Shown: positions 20,011 to 32,280 of the stretch, one piece after another | How the letters are laid out: every line of letters begins with the position of its first letter | How positions within the stretch are numbered: position 1 is the stretch's first letter | Source of the DNA: Desulfurellaceae bacterium | GTDB taxonomy: Bacteria; Desulfobacterota; Binatia; Bin18 | Length of the DNA stretch: 41,419 nucleotides | Reading direction: 5' to 3' | Assembly (NCBI GenBank): GCA_021296095.1 | Contig: JAGWBB010000017.1 | Coordinates: 44,859 to 86,277, forward strand | Translations under genes and position numbers: made by a program | The notes under the pieces: generated by a model | What the model was told of the DNA's origin: nothing | The model's database searches: none | Seen by the model: only the letters and a program-made list of their open reading frames with translations

Positions 20011-21135
20011 CTAGGCCGCCGACCTGGCCTCCAGACTCTCGAACCAGGGCAGCACCACGGTTTCGTTGATGCTGTAGGGATAGGCGTGGCCCCAGTCCGG
20101 AATCTCGCGAAAGGTTATCGGATAGCCGAGCCCGCTGAGCAGTTGCTGGGTCTGGCGGGCAAAGTCGATGGGAAAGATCGGGTCCTTTTCGCCGTGGACG
20201 AGCAGGATGGGCAGGTCCAGACCCCGCCCCCGTCGCAGCAGTTGATCAGCCGCAGTGTGGAGCTGGGAGGAAATCGGCGCAATCCCGGCAAACAGCTGGG
20301 GAAAGCTCAGGCCCAGGATATGGGTGAAAATCCCCCCGTCGGAAAAGCCCGAGGCGTACACCCGGCTGCGGTCAACCGCGTAGGTCTGCCACACCTCGTC
20401 GAGCATCAGACGGACGGAGCGCAGATCGATGACCGGGTTGGGCGGTGTGCCCGGTGTGCGAATGGCCGACCAGGTCTCGCGAGACGATTTGGGCGACAGC
20501 AGCAAGTAGCCCTTGCTCTTGGCCAGGCGCAGCCAGGTCAGAATGTAATCGTCGTCCCGACTATAACCGCCGTGCAGACACACAATGAGCGGCCACGTTT
20601 TGTGCGGCGTGTAGTTCTCGGGCACGTATAGCGAGTAGGCATAGCGCTGCTCGGTCTGTTCTTTCCGGATCAGACCGACCGGCACGTCGAGGTCCGGGCT
20701 CCGGGTTTCCAGGCGGGTCAGCTCGGGCAGGACCTCGGGCAGCACCCAGTACTGCTGGAGCAACGGCAGGTCGGCCCGGATGCGATACAACACCTGTTTG
20801 CCCAGACACAGCAGAAAGCGACCCTTCAGAAAACGGATGGCAAAGTCGCGTCCGACGGCGCTTGCAAACGCTCCATAGGCGTCAGCGCAGTGCTCAATCG
20901 CCTTGCCAAAACTGGTGTGAAAATCGCTCAGCTGCTGGGGGGGAGCGAGGTCGGCCAACTCGATCTTGAGGTCGTGAAACAGCTCACCGACCGTGGCTTC
21001 CAGGGCATCCCGCTGCTCGGCCAGGCGCGACATATGCAGCTGTTCCTGATAGGTCTCCATCGTCCGCAAAAAGGGCAGCAGTTTTTCTTCAAGCTGGTGA
21101 ATGCCGACGGTGTAGCGTTCCGTTGCAGCGTCCAT
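20011..21135 (-). CDS. Alpha/beta hydrolase (esterase/depolymerase-like) with N-terminal helical extension
   Basis: A 374-residue protein. The C-terminal 220 residues are an alpha/beta hydrolase of the polyhydroxyalkanoate-depolymerase/dienelactone-hydrolase type: oxyanion strand IVCLHGGYS (184-192), nucleophile S265 in SGFSDGG, acid D318 in HGEKDP and base H350 in WGHAYP. The first 150 residues are almost all helical and unlike the usual lid or signal peptide; no signal sequence is present, so it is cytoplasmic. The start at 21135 has GGGGAGG upstream. It is divergent from the WS/DGAT gene, which supports a role with storage esters or polyesters, but the substrate is inferred only from context. 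Confidence 0.75.
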   Translation of the reverse strand: MDAATERYTVGIHQLEEKLLPFLRTMETYQEQLHMSRLAEQRDALEATVGELFHDLKIELADLAPPQQLSDFHTSFGKAIEHCADAYGAFASAVGRDFAIRFLKGRFLLCLGKQVLYRIRADLPLLQQYWVLPEVLPELTRLETRSPDLDVPVGLIRKEQTEQRYAYSLYVPENYTPHKTWPLIVCLHGGYSRDDDYILTWLRLAKSKGYLLLSPKSSRETWSAIRTPGTPPNPVIDLRSVRLMLDEVWQTYAVDRSRVYASGFSDGGIFTHILGLSFPQLFAGIAPISSQLHTAADQLLRRGRGLDLPILLVHGEKDPIFPIDFARQTQQLLSGLGYPITFREIPDWGHAYPYSINETVVLPWFESLEARSAA

Positions 21136-21266
21136 GGCCCCTCCCCTTTGTGGCTCAGTCTGGTGGTCTCTGCCCGGCCAGACTGTCACAAGCACGACCG
21201 AAAAGGCAAGCCAACCGCCCGGACGGGCTCTGTCCAGGTGCGAGTATTCTTGCTACACACACGGGT

Positions 21267-22703
21267 ATGCCCGAACACCACCAGCGCCGGCTGAGTTCCC
21301 TGGAAGCCTCCTTCCTGTACCGCGAGCAGCCCTGTCAGCCCATGCACATCGGCGGCTGCGGGGTCTACGAGGGCGAGGTCTCGCGCCAGACCCTGGTTCG
21401 TCTGCTCGAGGAGCGCCTCCATCTGCTGCCCCGCTACCGACAAAAAGTGGTGGCCGCTCCGTTCGGTATTGCCCACCCGAGCTGGCAGGACGACCCGCAG
21501 TTCGACCTGTCCCACCACATTGAGGAGCGAACGCTGCCCGAGCCCGGCGATGACCGGGTGTTATCCGTTGTTGGCGGCCGGATTTTCGCCGAACCCCTCG
21601 ACCGGACCCATCCGCTGTGGAAGCTCAGCCTGATCCGCGGCCGCCGCGACGGCAACACCGCGATTCTGGCCAAGGTCCACTACGCCATGGTCGAAGGCGT
21701 GACCGGTACGGCGCTGACCACCGTCCTGCACGACCTGCGGCCCGACGCGCCCCCGCCCTCGCCCCCGTCCGGCGCCTGGACGGCCGAGCCCGGGCCGGAC
21801 TTTTTGGGCCAGCTGCAAAACGCTCTGCGCGACGCCATCGCCACCACGGCCACGCTCACCGTCGATCAGGCCCAGCGTGTATGGTCTAGCTGGCAGGCTT
21901 CCTCAGACTCTCAGCCTCAATTCAGCACGGCTACCGAGGTACTGTCTCCCCTGCTGCGACCGGTTTCCCAGCTGCCGTTTAACGGCTGCCTGTCCGGCGC
22001 GCGCCAGTTTGCCTGGACCGAACTCGCCTTTCCCGAAATCCGGGCGATTCGGTCGGCCTTGGGGGGCAGCGTCAACGATGTCGTGCTGACGATTATCTCC
22101 GGCGGTCTGGGCAGCTATCTGCGGACCAAGGGATACGCGCTGGACAGCCTCGAACTCCGCCTCGCCTACCCAGTGACGTTGCGGCGTCATGCCGGCGGAA
22201 ACGGTGCTGCGGATGAGACACAGGCGCCGCTTGTTTCGACTATGATCGTGCCGCTGTACCCGGGCATTGCCGACCCGGTCCGACGTTTTACGGCCGAGCA
22301 CCGTGCCCTGGAAGCACTCAAGACCCAGCGCCAGGCCCAGACCCTGGCCGAGTTCCAGAGCCTGGGTCGCCTCCTACCGCCGGCCCTCCAGGCTCTCAGC
22401 CAGCAGCTCGGACTGCCCGTGGCCAATACGGTCTCGCTCAACGTTCCCGGCCCCCAGATTCCGCTCTATCTGGCCGGCCATAAGCGCCTCGCCCTCTACC
22501 CGATCGGTCCGCTCAACGCCAACATCGGCCTGTTCCACATCACCTCCAGCTACCACCACAGGCTGACCATCGGTGTCACCGTCGATCCCCAGCTGATGCC
22601 GGATGTGTGGCACTACACGGACTGCCTGCGTGGGGCGTTTCAGGAACTGCGCGACGCGGCCGACCGCAGTCCATCCGACAAGACGACCCGGCACGTCGCC
22701 TGA
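21267..22703 (+). CDS. WS/DGAT family acyltransferase with altered active-site motif
   Basis: A 478-residue protein of the wax ester synthase/diacylglycerol acyltransferase family, which makes wax esters and triacylglycerols from acyl-CoA. Seen: SSLEASFLYRE start, PLDRTHPLW (110-118), AKVHYAMVEG (135-144), SVNDVVLTIISGGLGSYL and NVPGPQIPLYLAG near the end. The hallmark HHxxxDG reads HYAMVEG here: the second histidine is Y139 and the aspartate is E143. In characterised members that histidine is essential, so activity is doubtful or changed. The frame is open further upstream, but 21267 starts at the family's usual N-terminus; no clear ribosome site precedes it. Confidence 0.85.
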   Translation: MPEHHQRRLSSLEASFLYREQPCQPMHIGGCGVYEGEVSRQTLVRLLEERLHLLPRYRQKVVAAPFGIAHPSWQDDPQFDLSHHIEERTLPEPGDDRVLSVVGGRIFAEPLDRTHPLWKLSLIRGRRDGNTAILAKVHYAMVEGVTGTALTTVLHDLRPDAPPPSPPSGAWTAEPGPDFLGQLQNALRDAIATTATLTVDQAQRVWSSWQASSDSQPQFSTATEVLSPLLRPVSQLPFNGCLSGARQFAWTELAFPEIRAIRSALGGSVNDVVLTIISGGLGSYLRTKGYALDSLELRLAYPVTLRRHAGGNGAADETQAPLVSTMIVPLYPGIADPVRRFTAEHRALEALKTQRQAQTLAEFQSLGRLLPPALQALSQQLGLPVANTVSLNVPGPQIPLYLAGHKRLALYPIGPLNANIGLFHITSSYHHRLTIGVTVDPQLMPDVWHYTDCLRGAFQELRDAADRSPSDKTTRHVA

Positions 22704-22705
22704 GC

Positions 22706-22719
22706 CCGGTCTGGACCGG
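22706..22719. other. Short palindrome between convergent genes
   Basis: CCGGTC-TG-GACCGG lies between the WS/DGAT and GNAT stops. It may help stop transcription from either side; no T-run is present. Confidence 0.25.
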
Positions 22720-22726
22720 TCGTCCG

Positions 22727-23296
22727 CTAGACCGTCGGCTCGGTCAAGCCCGTCACGTCATAGGCCATGATCATCAGATCGTGGGTCTGGCCATCCCGAT
22801 CAATCACAAAATCGGACAGCAGGGCTTCGGGCTGAAAGCCCAAGTGCTCAAAGGTCGCAATTGCCCCTTTTTGCTCGGGCATCATCTGGGCCACGATGCG
22901 GCTCAGCCCCATGTCACGGGCCAGGACGAAGATCTCGCGGGCCAGTTGACGGCCCAGCCCCTGGCCGCGATAGGCGGGGCCGATCAAAATCCGGATTTCT
23001 CCCAGATGGCGCTGCCAGGTGACTTGATGGTGGTGCAGAATCGCATAGCCGGCAATCTGGCCGTCGGCCTCGGCGATGATGGTGGCGGTGGTATTCTCTT
23101 CGAGCTGGCGCACCCATTGTCTGACCACCTCGGGCTTGGTGATGTCCATCCGCAGGTGGAGCAGGTCGGAGGCTGGCAGACTGTTGGCAAAACTGACCAG
23201 TCGATTGGCGTCGAACGCACTCATCGGTCGCAGGGTGACGGCCAAGCCGTTGCGCAGGGTGATAAGCAGAGGAGAGGTGCGCTGTGTGTGTTCCAT
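22727..23296 (-). CDS. GNAT family N-acetyltransferase
   Basis: A 189-residue GCN5-related acetyltransferase. The acetyl-CoA pyrophosphate loop is YRGQGLGRQL (residues 108-117), after the strand EIRILIGP, and the last conserved region is FEHLGFQPEALL. The target could be a small molecule, a peptide or a protein N-terminus. GGAG is 8 bases before the ATG. It is convergent with the WS/DGAT gene and divergent from the lipase gene, separated from the latter by a 138-base control region. Confidence 0.85.
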   Translation of the reverse strand: MEHTQRTSPLLITLRNGLAVTLRPMSAFDANRLVSFANSLPASDLLHLRMDITKPEVVRQWVRQLEENTTATIIAEADGQIAGYAILHHHQVTWQRHLGEIRILIGPAYRGQGLGRQLAREIFVLARDMGLSRIVAQMMPEQKGAIATFEHLGFQPEALLSDFVIDRDGQTHDLMIMAYDVTGLTEPTV

Positions 23297-23394
23297 GCCG
23301 GGACTCCAGTCTCAGGTCTTGCTCCAGGTCGCGTCTTCTTATCCCAGTCTGCCATGGGCTGGCAAGAGCGGCGCCCGCAGCCGACCCGGGTCAA

Positions 23395-23426
23395 TGCTTG
23401 CAAAATTTCCCATCCCTTGCTAGCAA
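23395..23426 (+). promoter_or_regulatory. Shared promoter/operator element of the lipase gene
   Basis: TGCTTGCA (23395-23402), 16 bases, GCTAGCA (23419-23425). Inside it, TTGCAA (23398-23403) and TAGCAA (23421-23426) form a -35/-10 pair with a 17-base spacer. The predicted start near 23433 is two bases before the ATG at 23435. The same element occurs at 26125-26155 and 26567-26597. Confidence 0.7.
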
Positions 23427-23434
23427 TGGCGAGC

Positions 23435-24217
23435 ATGAACTGGCACTCCGCTCCGGCCTATCCCGACTATGTGTGGCAGCTGTCTCACCTTCTGCCCTCC
23501 CCCATATACCGGGCTCCTCCCCTCTCCCCCGGCACGGGTGAACCTATCCTGTTGATTCCGGGTTTCCTGGCCGGCGACTGGACGCTGCGGGTGATGGCCG
23601 GCTGGCTGAACCGTCTCGGCTATCAGTCCTACCTGTCGGGCATTGACTGGAATGTTGACTGTCCGAACCGGACCGGTGAACTCCTGGGCTGGCGGGTTGA
23701 CCACATTCTTCAGGAAACCGGTCAGCCGCTGACCGTCATCGGACACAGTCTGGGCGGCATGCTGGCCCGTTTTCTGGGCGCGACCTATCCGACAAAAATC
23801 AGCAGCGTCATTGCCATCGGCTCACCGCTCAGCCCGCCCGTCAAGGTCAACCCCATCGTCCTGGTTGCCTCGCACGTCTTATACCCGATCAGACGGGTGC
23901 GCGGCCGCGTTCCCGCCGAGTGCGGAAGCCTGGAGTGTAGCTGCCAGTTTCAACAGACCGCGTTCGGCCCCTTTCCCCCGCGCGTCGGCTTCGCCTCCAT
24001 CTTCTCCAAAGACGACGAAATCGTCGCCTGGCACTCCAGCGTTGACCCCGAGGGCCAAAACCTCGAGGTGCCGGGCAGACACCTGGGACTGATTGTGAAT
24101 CGCTATGTCTATCAGGCCCTGCTCCAGGTCCTGTCAGGGGAGGAAGACGAATCCGTTGGCACCGAGGCATCGCTTGGCGCCAACGGACAGGCGGGAGAAG
24201 ACGACAACGCGGACTGA
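23435..24217 (+). CDS. Lipase-like alpha/beta hydrolase
   Basis: A 260-residue alpha/beta hydrolase of the lipase type: oxyanion strand ILLIPGFLAGDW (38-49), nucleophile S105 in VIGHSLGGML, acid D193 or D194 in SKDDEIV and base H216 in GRHLG. A Cys-rich stretch (C163, C168, C170) sits in the cap region. There is no clear signal peptide, so action on internal neutral lipid is plausible. The ATG at 23426 overlaps the -10 box and is rejected; 23435 follows the predicted transcription start by two bases and has no Shine-Dalgarno, so the message is probably leaderless. It shares its promoter element with the phasin-like and XRE genes, tying it to lipid-granule metabolism. Confidence 0.8.
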   Translation: MNWHSAPAYPDYVWQLSHLLPSPIYRAPPLSPGTGEPILLIPGFLAGDWTLRVMAGWLNRLGYQSYLSGIDWNVDCPNRTGELLGWRVDHILQETGQPLTVIGHSLGGMLARFLGATYPTKISSVIAIGSPLSPPVKVNPIVLVASHVLYPIRRVRGRVPAECGSLECSCQFQQTAFGPFPPRVGFASIFSKDDEIVAWHSSVDPEGQNLEVPGRHLGLIVNRYVYQALLQVLSGEEDESVGTEASLGANGQAGEDDNAD

Positions 24218-24243
24218 GGGCGACGGCTTGGCCGTCCGTCCGC

Positions 24244-24732
24244 TCAACGGCTATACGGTTCCTTGTATACTTCGTCCGGCTCATCCATCGGCGTTTCAAA
24301 CGACTTGGCAGCGTCGTTTCTTGCGATGACATCCTTGGTATAGATATTCACGTCCCACAGGGCCTCGCCGGCGCCGTCTCCATTCGTAAAGGTGAAGCGG
24401 ACCCAGTAGTTGCCGGCGCGAAACTGATCGAAGACGTTGAAATACTGACTCAGGGTCTCGACAAAGCGGTCCTTCTGAGAAGGCATGCCGGCTGTCCATG
24501 GCCCCAACTCCCAGGGCTGGCCGGCTCGGGCACTGTCCCGCGAGCGTTTCTCGATATTCGAGATCACGCTGAACAGCCCCTCTGCGGTATGCGATTTGAC
24601 CATCTGAATGGCCTGCTTTTCCTTAGCCCCCATCTCGGTCGGTTCACTGCATCCAGCGACCAGGGCCAGCCCAAGCACGGCCAGTAGCGGTGCCCTCAGC
24701 GCGTTCTTGATGTACTGCAATGTGGATTGCAT
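24244..24732 (-). CDS. Small lipoprotein of unknown function
   Basis: A 162-residue protein with a lipoprotein signal: basic start, hydrophobic segment APLLAVLGLALVAGC and lipobox LVAGC with C28 as the lipidated residue. It would be anchored to the membrane facing the periplasm. The mature part (EKQAIQMVKSHTAEGLFSVI, YWVRFTFTNGDGAGEALWDV) forms mixed helix and strand and shows no family I recognise. The start at 24732 has GGAG 9 bases upstream and begins right at the signal peptide, so the longer open frame is rejected. It ends tail-to-tail with the lipase gene and is divergent from the CRP/FNR gene. Confidence 0.75.
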   Translation of the reverse strand: MQSTLQYIKNALRAPLLAVLGLALVAGCSEPTEMGAKEKQAIQMVKSHTAEGLFSVISNIEKRSRDSARAGQPWELGPWTAGMPSQKDRFVETLSQYFNVFDQFRAGNYWVRFTFTNGDGAGEALWDVNIYTKDVIARNDAAKSFETPMDEPDEVYKEPYSR

Positions 24733-24916
24733 CCCCTCGCCCTCCAAATGAGCAGAATTCGGCCGGAGCGAACTGCTTGCGGCGCTCACGCTATCCGATC
24801 CCGACCGTTGCTCGGGGATTGTACAACGAAAGAGGCCCTCGGTCCATCAGCATAGCCGGCTTCGGATCGGTCTCTGACCGGAAAAGACGGAAACACAGCG
24901 GACCGCGTCTTGCTTT

Positions 24917-24936
24917 TGTGTCACCTAGGTGACACA
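24917..24936. promoter_or_regulatory. 20-bp perfect palindrome upstream of the CRP/FNR gene
   Basis: TGTGTCACCTAGGTGACACA is fully symmetrical. It contains TGTCA-N6-TGACA, the spacing of CRP-family sites, and lies 65 bases before the regulator's ATG. A closely related site is at 26173-26186. Probable autoregulatory site; it may also affect the divergent lipoprotein gene. Confidence 0.65.
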
Positions 24937-25000
24937 TAGAGAGACGACAATTACCGAGCCAGCCCCGCATGTTCCAGACACCCAAGCGAGACGAGGCAGA

Positions 25001-25705
25001 ATGACACGCCAACCCGTTCTGAATATCATGAGCCTACGTCGGATGAGGACGTTTGCCAGAGCTTCCGACCGCCAACTCAAGACCATTTTGTCCGAGATCA
25101 CCCTGGAGCGCTTCGAGCGCCGGACCACCCTCTTCCGCCAGGGCGACCCGTCCGACTCCCTGTACGTCCTGGTCTCCGGGGTGATCAAGCTATCGCTGCG
25201 CACCCCAGAGGGCGAGGATATTCTGGTCAGCCTGATTTCGCCGGGCGAACTGTTCGGCATCACCTCTCTGCTGCCCGGCATGCAGCGGCCGTTTCGGAGT
25301 GAGGCGTTCAGTGACTGCTGGGTCGGCCGCCTGTCGGCCGATACTCTGGTCAGCACCCTGCTGGGTGTTCCGTTTGCCGACTTCAGCGCGCTGATGGACG
25401 GGACGGTCAGCCGCTGGTTCGGCCTCCTGCACCGTTACGCCCACTTTCAGGGTCTCGACCTCCAGCATCGTCTGGCCTTTGCCCTGCTGGAGCTGGCGCA
25501 AAAATTCGGGGCTCAGGACTCGCGGGGCACGCTCCTGATTCTCCAACTCACCCACGAGGATTTGGCCGATTTGGTCGGCGCCTCGCGTCAAAAGGTCACC
25601 GAACACATGCGAACCCTGGAGCGCAAGGCTCTGCTCCAGCGGGAGGGACGCCGACTCATTGTGTCAACCCAGGGCCTGCGCGAACTGGTCCAGATTGAGC
25701 ACTAA
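25001..25705 (+). CDS. CRP/FNR family transcriptional regulator
   Basis: A 234-residue regulator: cyclic-nucleotide-like beta-roll (FRQGDPSDSLYVLVSGVIKL, 45-64; SPGELFGITSLL, 80-91), dimer helix, and C-terminal winged helix-turn-helix (LTHEDLADLVGASRQKVTEH, 183-202). There is no FNR-type N-terminal cysteine cluster, and the phosphate-contacting R-S-A triplet of cAMP binders is not clear, so the ligand is unknown. In the recognition helix R196-Q197 replaces the CRP pair Arg-Glu, which fits the TGTCA half-sites found upstream. The ATG at 25001 has GAGG 4 bases upstream; a GTG 72 bases earlier lies inside the palindrome and is unlikely. Confidence 0.85.
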   Translation: MTRQPVLNIMSLRRMRTFARASDRQLKTILSEITLERFERRTTLFRQGDPSDSLYVLVSGVIKLSLRTPEGEDILVSLISPGELFGITSLLPGMQRPFRSEAFSDCWVGRLSADTLVSTLLGVPFADFSALMDGTVSRWFGLLHRYAHFQGLDLQHRLAFALLELAQKFGAQDSRGTLLILQLTHEDLADLVGASRQKVTEHMRTLERKALLQREGRRLIVSTQGLRELVQIEH

Positions 25706-25727
25706 AAAAGGGGCTGCACGCAGCCCC
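25704..25727 (-). terminator. Intrinsic terminator of the phasin-like gene
   Basis: On the minus strand GGGGCTG (25727-25721) and CAGCCCC (25716-25710) form a 7-base stem with a 4-base loop, followed by six T residues (25709-25704). It starts 33 bases after the phasin-like stop. The T-run overlaps the CRP/FNR stop codon on the other strand. Confidence 0.85.
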
Positions 25728-25760
25728 TGTGGATACGACACACGCCAAGATGCCAAAGGA

Positions 25761-26066
25761 CTAGAGGCCGACCTTGTCTTCGGTCGACTTGTCCAGCTGC
25801 CACAGTTGGCGCGCCAGGCTTGTTGAGGAACCAACGAGCTGCTTGGCCAGCGAAAGCTGGGCCTCAACCATCGGTGCCATCGGGGTTTCCTTGGCCCAGG
25901 CGGTGGTTTTTTCGCTCATCTCCAGGGCTTGACTCGCCCATTTCTCGCTGTTGTCAATATACTGCGCGGCCATCTCTCGCATCGGCGCCAGCATCGGCAG
26001 ATTGGGCAGGTTCAGTTCGCCACACATCTTGCTGAAAGGATTATTGGTCCACATATTCTCGGCCAT
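25761..26066 (-). CDS. Phasin-like granule/lipid-droplet coat protein
   Basis: A 101-residue protein, mostly amphipathic helix with many Met, Ala, Gln and Lys residues (APMREMAAQYIDNSEKWASQ; AQLSLAKQLVGSSTSLARQL). It lacks a signal peptide, TM helix or enzyme motif. The make-up, the length and the pairing with a small XRE regulator fit phasins and related proteins that coat polyester or neutral-lipid granules. AGGAGG is about 9 bases upstream. It has the shared promoter/operator element, a CRP-type site near -62, and its own terminator, so it is a highly controlled single-gene unit. The function is inferred from composition and context rather than from a strong family match. Confidence 0.65.
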   Translation of the reverse strand: MAENMWTNNPFSKMCGELNLPNLPMLAPMREMAAQYIDNSEKWASQALEMSEKTTAWAKETPMAPMVEAQLSLAKQLVGSSTSLARQLWQLDKSTEDKVGL

Positions 26067-26123
26067 GGTATTGTCCTCCTCTGATCGCGTTCACCTGTCC
26101 GGTGCTTGCTTGCTTTCCGATAG

Positions 26124-26155
26124 ATGCTAGCTCAATCCGCTAACTTTTGCAAGCA
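26124..26155 (-). promoter_or_regulatory. Shared promoter/operator element of the phasin-like gene
   Basis: Minus strand: TGCTTGCA (26155-26148), 16 bases, GCTAGCA (26131-26125). -35 TTGCAA (26147-26152) and -10 TAGCAT (26124-26129) are 17 bases apart. Predicted start is near 26117, giving a 50-base leader that contains the ribosome site. An extra pair of TGCTTGC-like half-sites (26103-26113) lies just past the start. Confidence 0.7.
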
Positions 26156-26172
26156 AAACAGCCACCAAAAGC

Positions 26173-26186
26173 GTCACCTGGGTGAC
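26173..26186. promoter_or_regulatory. CRP-type site upstream of the phasin-like promoter
   Basis: GTCACCTGGGTGAC is the same dyad as at 24917-24936 with one central change. Its centre is about 62.5 bases before the predicted phasin start, the classic class I activator position. It lies between the XRE stop and the phasin promoter. Confidence 0.55.
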
Positions 26187-26189
26187 ACA

Positions 26190-26558
26190 TTAGACCGATT
26201 CTTCGCTTTCGTTGACCTTACGGAATGAGCGGTACATGTCGATCAGCATTTCCCGCTGCCGAGCCGACAGCTGGGGATCGTGCATGACCGCTTTGACCAC
26301 ATCGCTGTCTTCGGTTTCCTGGGGGTCCAGAATACCGGCCTGGGTATACAGGGTTTCGGCCGAAATTTTGAGTCCCTTGGCCAGAGACTGGAGGATCATG
26401 CTGCTCGGCATGCGCAGGCCGCGCTCAATCTGGCTCAAATAGGGGTTGGAAATGCCGCACAAATCGGCCAGCTGGCGGATGGACAGCTGGGACAGCTCGC
26501 GCTGACGGCGCAGAAACTCGCCCAGGCTCGCATACGGATCGGGTTTTTTTGCAGACAT
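26190..26558 (-). CDS. XRE family regulator resembling lipid-droplet regulator MLDSR
   Basis: A 122-residue DNA-binding protein. The helix-turn-helix covers residues 14-68 (LGEFLRRQRELSQLSIRQLA, GISNPYLSQIERG), followed by ISAETLYTQAGILDP and a conserved C-terminal helix (HDPQLSARQREMLIDMYRSF). The whole layout matches the small XRE regulators next to phasin and lipid-droplet genes, such as MLDSR of Rhodococcus, which represses a droplet-protein gene and is released by binding the droplet. The ATG at 26558 has no Shine-Dalgarno and lies next to the predicted transcription start, so the message should be leaderless. The shared element directly upstream implies autoregulation. Confidence 0.8.
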   Translation of the reverse strand: MSAKKPDPYASLGEFLRRQRELSQLSIRQLADLCGISNPYLSQIERGLRMPSSMILQSLAKGLKISAETLYTQAGILDPQETEDSDVVKAVMHDPQLSARQREMLIDMYRSFRKVNESEESV

Positions 26559-26564
26559 GCGCTC

Positions 26565-26597
26565 AGTGCTAGCGCACTTTGCTTGCGGATGCAAGCA
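26565..26597 (-). promoter_or_regulatory. Shared promoter/operator element of the XRE gene
   Basis: Minus strand: TGCTTGCA (26597-26590), 16 bases, GCTAGCA (26573-26567). -35 TTGCAT (26589-26594) and -10 TAGCAC (26566-26571) are 17 bases apart. It also contains the dyads TGCTTGC-N4-GCAAGCA (26580-26597) and AGTGC-N4-GCACT (26565-26578). Predicted start 26559. Confidence 0.7.
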
Positions 26598-31638: not shown

Positions 31639-31899
31639 ATGTACCGGCTGACGATCAGGCACCACGCCATCAAAGCCCTGCAAAGAATGCCGGCCCGGGA
31701 GGCGCGCCGCGTGCGGGGTGCATTGGACAAACTGGCCCAAGACCCGGACCGGCGCGATATTGATGTAGCACGCTTACAGGGCCGCCCAGGCTTTCGGCTG
31801 CGGGCTGGCGGCTGGCGCGTCATCTTCGAGCGAATTGAAAGGACGCGTGAGATCAATGTGCTCCGCATCGGCCCGCGTGGCGATGTCTACAAGTCCTAG
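31639..31899 (+). CDS. RelE/ParE-family toxin
   Basis: An 86-residue basic protein of the RelE/ParE fold. Seen: YRLTIRHHAIKALQRMP (2-18), then LDKLAQDP, and the core FRLRAGGWRVIFERIE with RIGPRGDVYK at the end, where R and Y serve in RNA-cleaving members. It is most likely a ribosome-dependent mRNA interferase, but a gyrase-poisoning ParE type cannot be excluded. The toxin gene precedes its antitoxin by 9 bases, the HigBA-type order. No strong ribosome site is present ahead of the ATG, which may keep toxin output low. Confidence 0.85.
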   Translation: MYRLTIRHHAIKALQRMPAREARRVRGALDKLAQDPDRRDIDVARLQGRPGFRLRAGGWRVIFERIERTREINVLRIGPRGDVYKS

Positions 31900-31908
31900 G
31901 AGAATGAT

Positions 31909-32280
31909 ATGACAAAACCGCAGATCATCCGCGACGCGAGCGGCAAGCCGGCCTTCGCCGTCCTGCCGTGGCGGGAATACGAACGCTTGACAACAGCCAG
32001 CGCCGAGGCGGGACTACGTGATGAAGCGCTGTACGACCGCGCCAAGACCGAGGACGAGGAGTCCTTTCCCATCGCTGTGGCGGACCGTTTGTTGGCGGGC
32101 GAGAACGCCGTGCGGGTCTACCGCAGCCATCGTGGTATGACCCAGCAGCAGCTGGCTGCAGCCGCCGGTATCAACGCCCTGTATCTTTCACAGATCGAAC
32201 GGGGCCGTCGCACCGGTTCGGCTCGGACCCTGGCCGCTCTGGCTACGGCTTTGCGTATCGACGTGGACGCTTTGCTCTGA
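31909..32280 (+). CDS. XRE family antitoxin
   Basis: A 123-residue protein. The N-terminal 30 residues (IIRDASGKPAFAVLPWREYERL) look like a Phd-type fold; the middle is acidic and would wrap the toxin; the C-terminal 60 residues are an XRE helix-turn-helix (RGMTQQQLAAAAGINALYLS, then QIERGRRTG). It neutralises the upstream toxin and, with it, represses the operon through the palindrome at 31570-31618. AGGAGA is 6 bases before the ATG, a better ribosome site than the toxin's. It ends 9 bases from the convergent methyltransferase-like gene. Confidence 0.85.
   Translation: MTKPQIIRDASGKPAFAVLPWREYERLTTASAEAGLRDEALYDRAKTEDEESFPIAVADRLLAGENAVRVYRSHRGMTQQQLAAAAGINALYLSQIERGRRTGSARTLAALATALRIDVDALL

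Follow-up and report, generated by a model that had tools for sequence, protein, structure and literature searches.

Why should a lipase gene, a phasin-like gene and the gene of an XRE regulator share one promoter element, and which protein acts through it? The question is raised by a 41,419-nucleotide stretch of DNA from a Desulfurellaceae bacterium of the Candidatus Binatia (assembly GCA_021296095.1, contig JAGWBB010000017.1, positions 44,859 to 86,277), hereafter the window. An original prediction, made from the letters of the window, held that TGCTTGCA-N16-GCTAGCA occurs there in three exact copies, and proposed repression by the XRE protein by analogy with MLDSR, which controls lipid-droplet proteins. 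We found the three copies as described, each with the 16-base gap, at 23395-23425 (plus strand) ahead of the lipase gene, 26125-26155 (minus strand) ahead of the phasin-like gene and 26567-26597 (minus strand) ahead of the XRE gene. The observation holds, and so for the most part does its interpretation. In our judgement it is quite probable that the XRE protein belongs to the MLDSR family and represses its own gene as well as the phasin and lipase genes, that granule binding probably relieves this repression, and that the phasin gene is also under CRP-type activation.

No match to TGCTTGCA-N16-GCTAGCA was seen in 100 dinucleotide shuffles of the window. Across the whole genome (G000; 4.32 Mb in 185 contigs) the exact matches are the window's three, with the XRE, phasin-like and lipase genes downstream, and a control pattern read backward gave no match in the same genome. 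The relaxed form GYTTGC-N17-GYTAGCA was scanned across the family, a set of 16 genomes with the window's own included (about 79 Mb). It gave 30 matches in 15 of the 16 genomes, and all 30 precede an orthologue of the XRE, phasin-like or lipase gene; random positions or unrelated genes would have spoken against a regulon. The genome and family scans thus bear out the proposed small regulon of regulator, phasin and lipase, in which control would probably be repression.

The genes and their promoter/operator copies are arranged in the window as follows.

23395..23426, plus strand: lipase promoter/operator; box A GCTTGC 23396-23401, box C GCTAGC 23419-23424; -35 box TTGCAA 23398-23403, -10 box TAGCAA 23421-23426, spacer 17 nucleotides
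23435..24217, plus strand: lipase-like alpha/beta hydrolase with a GHSLGG box; Pfam Abhydrolase_1 over its cut-off
25761..26066, minus strand: phasin-like granule coat protein, 101 amino acids, helical; its sole recurrent Pfam match is Phasin_2
26124..26155, minus strand: phasin promoter/operator; box A GCTTGC 26154-26149, box B GTTAGC 26144-26139, box C GCTAGC 26131-26126; -35 box TTGCAA 26152-26147, -10 box TAGCAT 26129-26124
26190..26558, minus strand: XRE regulator of the MLDSR/Rv0474 family, 122 amino acids
26566..26597, minus strand: XRE promoter/operator; perfect inner palindrome GCTTGC-ATCC-GCAAGC 26596-26581, box C GCTAGC 26573-26568; -35 box TTGCAT 26594-26589, -10 box TAGCAC 26571-26566

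Every copy scanned contains the sigma70-like pair with a 17-base spacer that had been noticed, of the form TTGCNN-N17-TAGCNN (TTGCAW-N17-TAGCAN in the window), with half-sites overlaid on it. The reading of the element as inverted TGCTWGC half-sites 17 apart holds as to this overlay on the promoter but is incomplete, because the XRE and phasin copies carry a third half-site within the spacer: GCTTGC-N4-GTTAGC-N7-GYTAGC, with GCAAGC as the inner box of the window's XRE copy. Similarly, the 16-base gap is fixed but is not the operator geometry; it equals the promoter spacing. Judged by sequence, the core of the operator is the inner 16-bp dyad GCTTGC-N4-GYTAGC, which is also the part conserved between phyla. 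Its half-site centres lie 10 bp apart, one helical turn. An XRE dimer fits half-sites at this distance. In the lipase copy of the window the inner box is degenerate (TTTCCC) and has been lost in this genus, while several relatives retain GTTATC or GTTACC (GTTAYC) there.

Orthologues of the XRE protein with 79-98% identity are present in 15 of the 16 family genomes, own included, and the phasin-like gene lies directly downstream of XRE in 14 relatives. The element stands upstream of both genes in every readable relative, and the phasin promoter/operator was found in 14/14 relatives scored. A position weight matrix of the promoter scored 23-49 bits in the upstream regions of XRE and phasin and of most lipase orthologues, with the lipase operator kept in genera g1, g2, g3, g4 and g7. 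Scores were below zero for the block neighbours CRP, lipoprotein, WS/DGAT (wax ester synthase/diacylglycerol acyltransferase), HpcH and CaiB, indicating no element at these genes, and GNAT scored only in those cases where it shares its upstream region with the lipase. Sites elsewhere in the family that match the dyad alone (16 of 40 matches) were set aside, since they stand at the backward-control level (21) and none recurs between genera at granule genes. Those that we read (two in G014, one in G010, two in G000) have no recognisable granule gene adjoining.

To which regulator family does the operator belong? The MLDSR protein of Rhodococcus jostii binds GNT(T/A)GCTNNTGCTANC ahead of the mldsr-mlds operon, as mapped by electrophoretic mobility shift assay and mutation, and is sequestered by lipid droplets (PMC5504291). 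The inner dyad agrees with this box at 10 of 12 specified positions, counting position 12 as C or T; the phasin site GCTTGCAAAAGTTAGC differs from it at positions 7, 10 and 12 (T, T and C in the box; A, A and T here). Choosing actinobacterial XRE orthologues by protein similarity only, we found GCTTGCAAWAGYTAGC or close variants upstream of the XRE gene, at most 150 nucleotides away, in 73 of 79 loci; 400 kb of sequence from these loci contained no other copy of the dyad. Among Mycobacteriales the dyad precedes the XRE orthologue in 66 of 70 loci, and in four Streptomyces genomes it occurs exactly once each, ahead of the XRE gene. Column frequencies are nearly identical in Binatia, in Streptomyces and relatives, and in Mycobacteriales. 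The next gene after the actinobacterial XRE is mostly MLDS/HbhA-like, judged by eye from a APLLAALGAADLA or TPLYAVAGAGDLA start and a Lys/Ala/Pro-rich tail; the pair in Mycobacteriales we take to be the Rv0474/hbhA orthologues. As an observation in its own right, Streptomyces, Actinomadura and Mycobacteriales throughout have GCTTGCAAWAGYTAGC before their Rv0474/MLDSR orthologue. Our literature searches found no paper on this operator across those groups, and nothing relevant on an XRE regulator of phasins or on this operator in papers on XRE proteins.

At the protein level, the XRE protein is about 50-62% identical to its actinobacterial orthologues, a comparison that did not include R. jostii ro02105 itself. 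The recognition helix SNPYLSQIER is common to all 15 family XRE proteins and nearly all the actinobacterial sequences. Binatia homologues with AAVLREIE-type helices have no operator. By sequence, then, the XRE protein is homologous to the MLDSR/Rv0474 family and has the same recognition helix. It is most likely the protein that binds the element, since the site resembles the MLDSR box, the operator stands ahead of the actinobacterial orthologues, the helix is shared and the operator is absent where the helix is another. The link to MLDSR, proposed as an analogy, is therefore stronger than that: the Binatia protein is a homologue of regulators whose genes lie directly before MLDS/HbhA-like genes and are preceded by the same operator. 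Whether the XRE gene was recently transferred from Actinobacteria is neither shown nor excluded by a tree of the proteins, because the tree is unrooted and the Actinobacteria form one group in it. The AlphaFold model of the XRE protein is of low confidence (predicted local distance difference test, pLDDT, 64). A paralogue of the same size with the helix AAVLREIE and no phasin neighbour occurs in other Binatia families; these homologues (46-54% identity) were rejected as regulon members on account of the different helix, the missing operator and the lack of an adjoining phasin gene.

Comparison with known systems shows what is shared and what is new. Like the Binatia locus, MLDSR-MLDS of R. jostii RHA1 (ro02105 is MLDSR) combines an XRE regulator, an autoregulatory 16-bp palindromic box and an adjoining droplet-coat gene, with a near-identical operator and a homologous regulator family (PMC5504291). 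There, regulator and coat gene form one operon with one promoter, whereas in Binatia the two genes have separate promoters, each with a copy of the operator. The coat is MLDS/HbhA-like in R. jostii and phasin-like in Binatia, and the lipase gene and the CRP-type site on the phasin promoter are found in Binatia. As in the rest of the MLDSR/Rv0474 family, the operator lies ahead of the regulator's own gene, which predicts autoregulation. The Rv0474-hbhA pair of Mycobacterium also has an orthologous XRE protein, an upstream dyad and, in the Mycobacteriales loci, an HbhA-like gene downstream. Rv0474 differs in being described as a copper-responsive autoregulator with rpoB as a target (reviewed in PMC10961391), and has no known phasin or lipase target. 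PhaR-phaP of Ralstonia eutropha and rhizobia follows the same logic: the repressor controls its own gene, binds the phasin promoter as well as the granule, and is reported to be titrated onto poly-3-hydroxybutyrate granules (PMC3570403), but PhaR belongs to an unrelated protein family (PF07879/PF05233). The PF07879 domain (PHB_acc_N) was found in 0 of the 16 family genomes, while the Caulobacter positive control was found.

The phasin promoter has a second input that the proposal of control by the XRE element, sound as far as it went, had not included. Three further features belong to it.

24919..24934, no strand assigned: CRP-type palindrome TGTCACCTAGGTGACA ahead of the CRP-like gene
25001..25705, plus strand: CRP/FNR-type regulator with a cyclic-nucleotide (cNMP)-binding domain and HTH_Crp_2; gene order kept in relatives
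26172..26187, no strand assigned: CRP-type palindrome (CGTCACCTGGGTGACA on the plus strand) ahead of phasin, its centre about -61.5 from the predicted phasin start site

With up to 2 mismatches allowed, these are the only two such palindromes in the genome, and the site is absent from the XRE and lipase promoters. A centre at -61.5 is the class-I activator distance, and other relatives with an intact site have the same distance at phasin. In genus g2 copies of this palindrome stand before two further loci: a phaE/phaR-like plus class III phaC operon, and a second phaC-like gene. Because the palindrome is limited to crp and phasin here and also lies before class III phaC operons in g2, its distribution suggests a CRP-like regulator that serves storage polymer genes specifically.

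The Phasin_2 match (PF09361) of the phasin-like protein reaches at best 23.0 bits against a curated cut-off of 24.9 (E about 7.7e-5 to 9e-5); it is found at E<1 in 6 of 10 phasin-like orthologues, and no other family recurs. The AlphaFold model of the protein is helical, with low confidence (pLDDT 64). The nearest solved relatives of the lipase are the triacylglycerol lipases of Chromobacterium, Burkholderia and Pseudomonas (E about 1e-6). A WS/DGAT acyltransferase gene lies at 21123-22703 of the window, and a class III PhaC-like gene lies on another contig of the genome; a close relative of the latter in G007 matches TIGR01836 with an E-value of 3e-84, under that family's cut-off. Given both genes, the granule could be polyhydroxyalkanoate, neutral lipid or both. 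Across genera, the WS/DGAT, GNAT and lipase genes (21123-24217) belong to the same conserved block as phasin and XRE, which suggests a storage-lipid island.

The sites, their uniqueness, their conservation, their overlap with promoters and the near-identical operator in a second phylum are established at the level of sequence. For XRE binding, repression and granule sequestration we argue from the homologous MLDSR and the analogous PhaR; CRP activation too is inferred. The inner dyad GCTTGC-N4-GYTAGC, the proposed binding site of an XRE dimer, overlaps the -35 box and the spacer, and a further half-site lies over the -10 box; the bound regulator would block RNA polymerase at the XRE, phasin and intracellular lipase promoters. 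Once the cell forms storage granules, either of polyhydroxyalkanoate or as neutral-lipid droplets, the XRE protein would probably be titrated onto their surface. Because of this titration, coat protein, lipase and regulator would be made in step with the granule surface, and a CRP-type activator bound at the class-I site would add activation of the phasin promoter.

Several findings weigh against this proposal. Part of the invariance of the element is due to its -35 and -10 boxes, and this raises the possibility that the element is a recurrent strong promoter (TTGCAA-N17-TAGCAT) of co-expressed genes with no dedicated regulator: its invariant ends are those two boxes and its spacer is always 17. 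Such a promoter should recur across the genome, yet there are three exact copies and no family matches at other genes. Moreover, the GC flanks outside the hexamers are invariant (GC before TTGC; GYTAGC), and the spacer holds the inner dyad that matches the MLDSR operator across phyla. We regard a promoter alone as very unlikely. At the lipase gene, the XRE protein may bind weakly because the inner half-site is missing from the window copy; that operator also sits in an intergenic region shared with the divergent GNAT gene, and in genus g6, where lipase is located elsewhere, the position matrix found no operator for it. Positions 7 and 10 of the box, published as T, are mostly A here, as they are in the sites of the actinobacterial orthologues. 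Homology of the phasin-like protein to MLDS was not detected (hhalign probability 0.2% between alignments).

The sign of control is a further difficulty, since MLDSR is reported both to activate and to repress, with activation at a low and repression at a high protein:DNA ratio, and both deletion and overexpression of mldsr lowered MLDS (PMC5504291). The XRE protein could on this precedent be mainly an activator, or a concentration-dependent dual regulator, of the three genes instead of a simple repressor. We consider this possible but improbable, as half-sites over both the -35 and the -10 box form a layout that usually blocks polymerase, and the CRP-type site is already a candidate for activating phasin. 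Another factor acting through the element, either the neighbouring CRP-like protein, whose gene lies within the conserved block, or a PhaR-type repressor, PhaR being the known phasin repressor of proteobacteria (PMC3570403), is given hardly any credence. The CRP-type sites are a different palindrome with its own two locations, PF07879 is missing from the family, and the element accompanies the XRE orthologue into Actinobacteria, beside other coat-gene neighbours.

Repression by a granule-titrated XRE protein, if true, places the Binatia coat protein and the mobilising enzyme under one granule signal, a concrete circuit for storage granules in an uncultured phylum without PhaR. More broadly, we lean towards a granule-sensing operator-regulator pair common to Actinobacteria and Candidatus Binatia that has been wired to non-homologous coats, with a lipase captured and a CRP-type activator placed on the coat gene only. 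What is new is the second phylum, the coat without detectable MLDS homology, the separate promoters, the added lipase and the CRP overlay. The 16 bp are near-identical across phyla while the coat proteins are unrelated, an indication that the MLDSR operator is an ancient regulatory code that has changed very little. This also suggests that what the regulator senses is the surface of the granule and not any one coat protein. The shared operator yields, in addition, an operator prediction for Rv0474/HbhA in mycobacteria and for the Streptomyces orthologues.

The promoter positions also bear on the transcripts. The XRE ATG lies 7 nucleotides after the -10 box in the window (26558-26571, minus strand) and 6-9 nucleotides after it in all 14 species, so the XRE mRNA is predicted to be leaderless, conserved across the 14 species. 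The lipase ATG follows its -10 box by 8 nucleotides, and its mRNA is predicted to be leaderless in this genus only. The phasin mRNA has a predicted leader of about 50 nucleotides with a ribosome-binding site, and phasin's own promoter and operator copy lies 35-66 nucleotides after the XRE stop codon. Elsewhere in the window (31640-32280, plus strand), a small RelE/ParE-like toxin frame precedes an XRE antitoxin-like gene; by eye, the two resemble a type II toxin-antitoxin pair.

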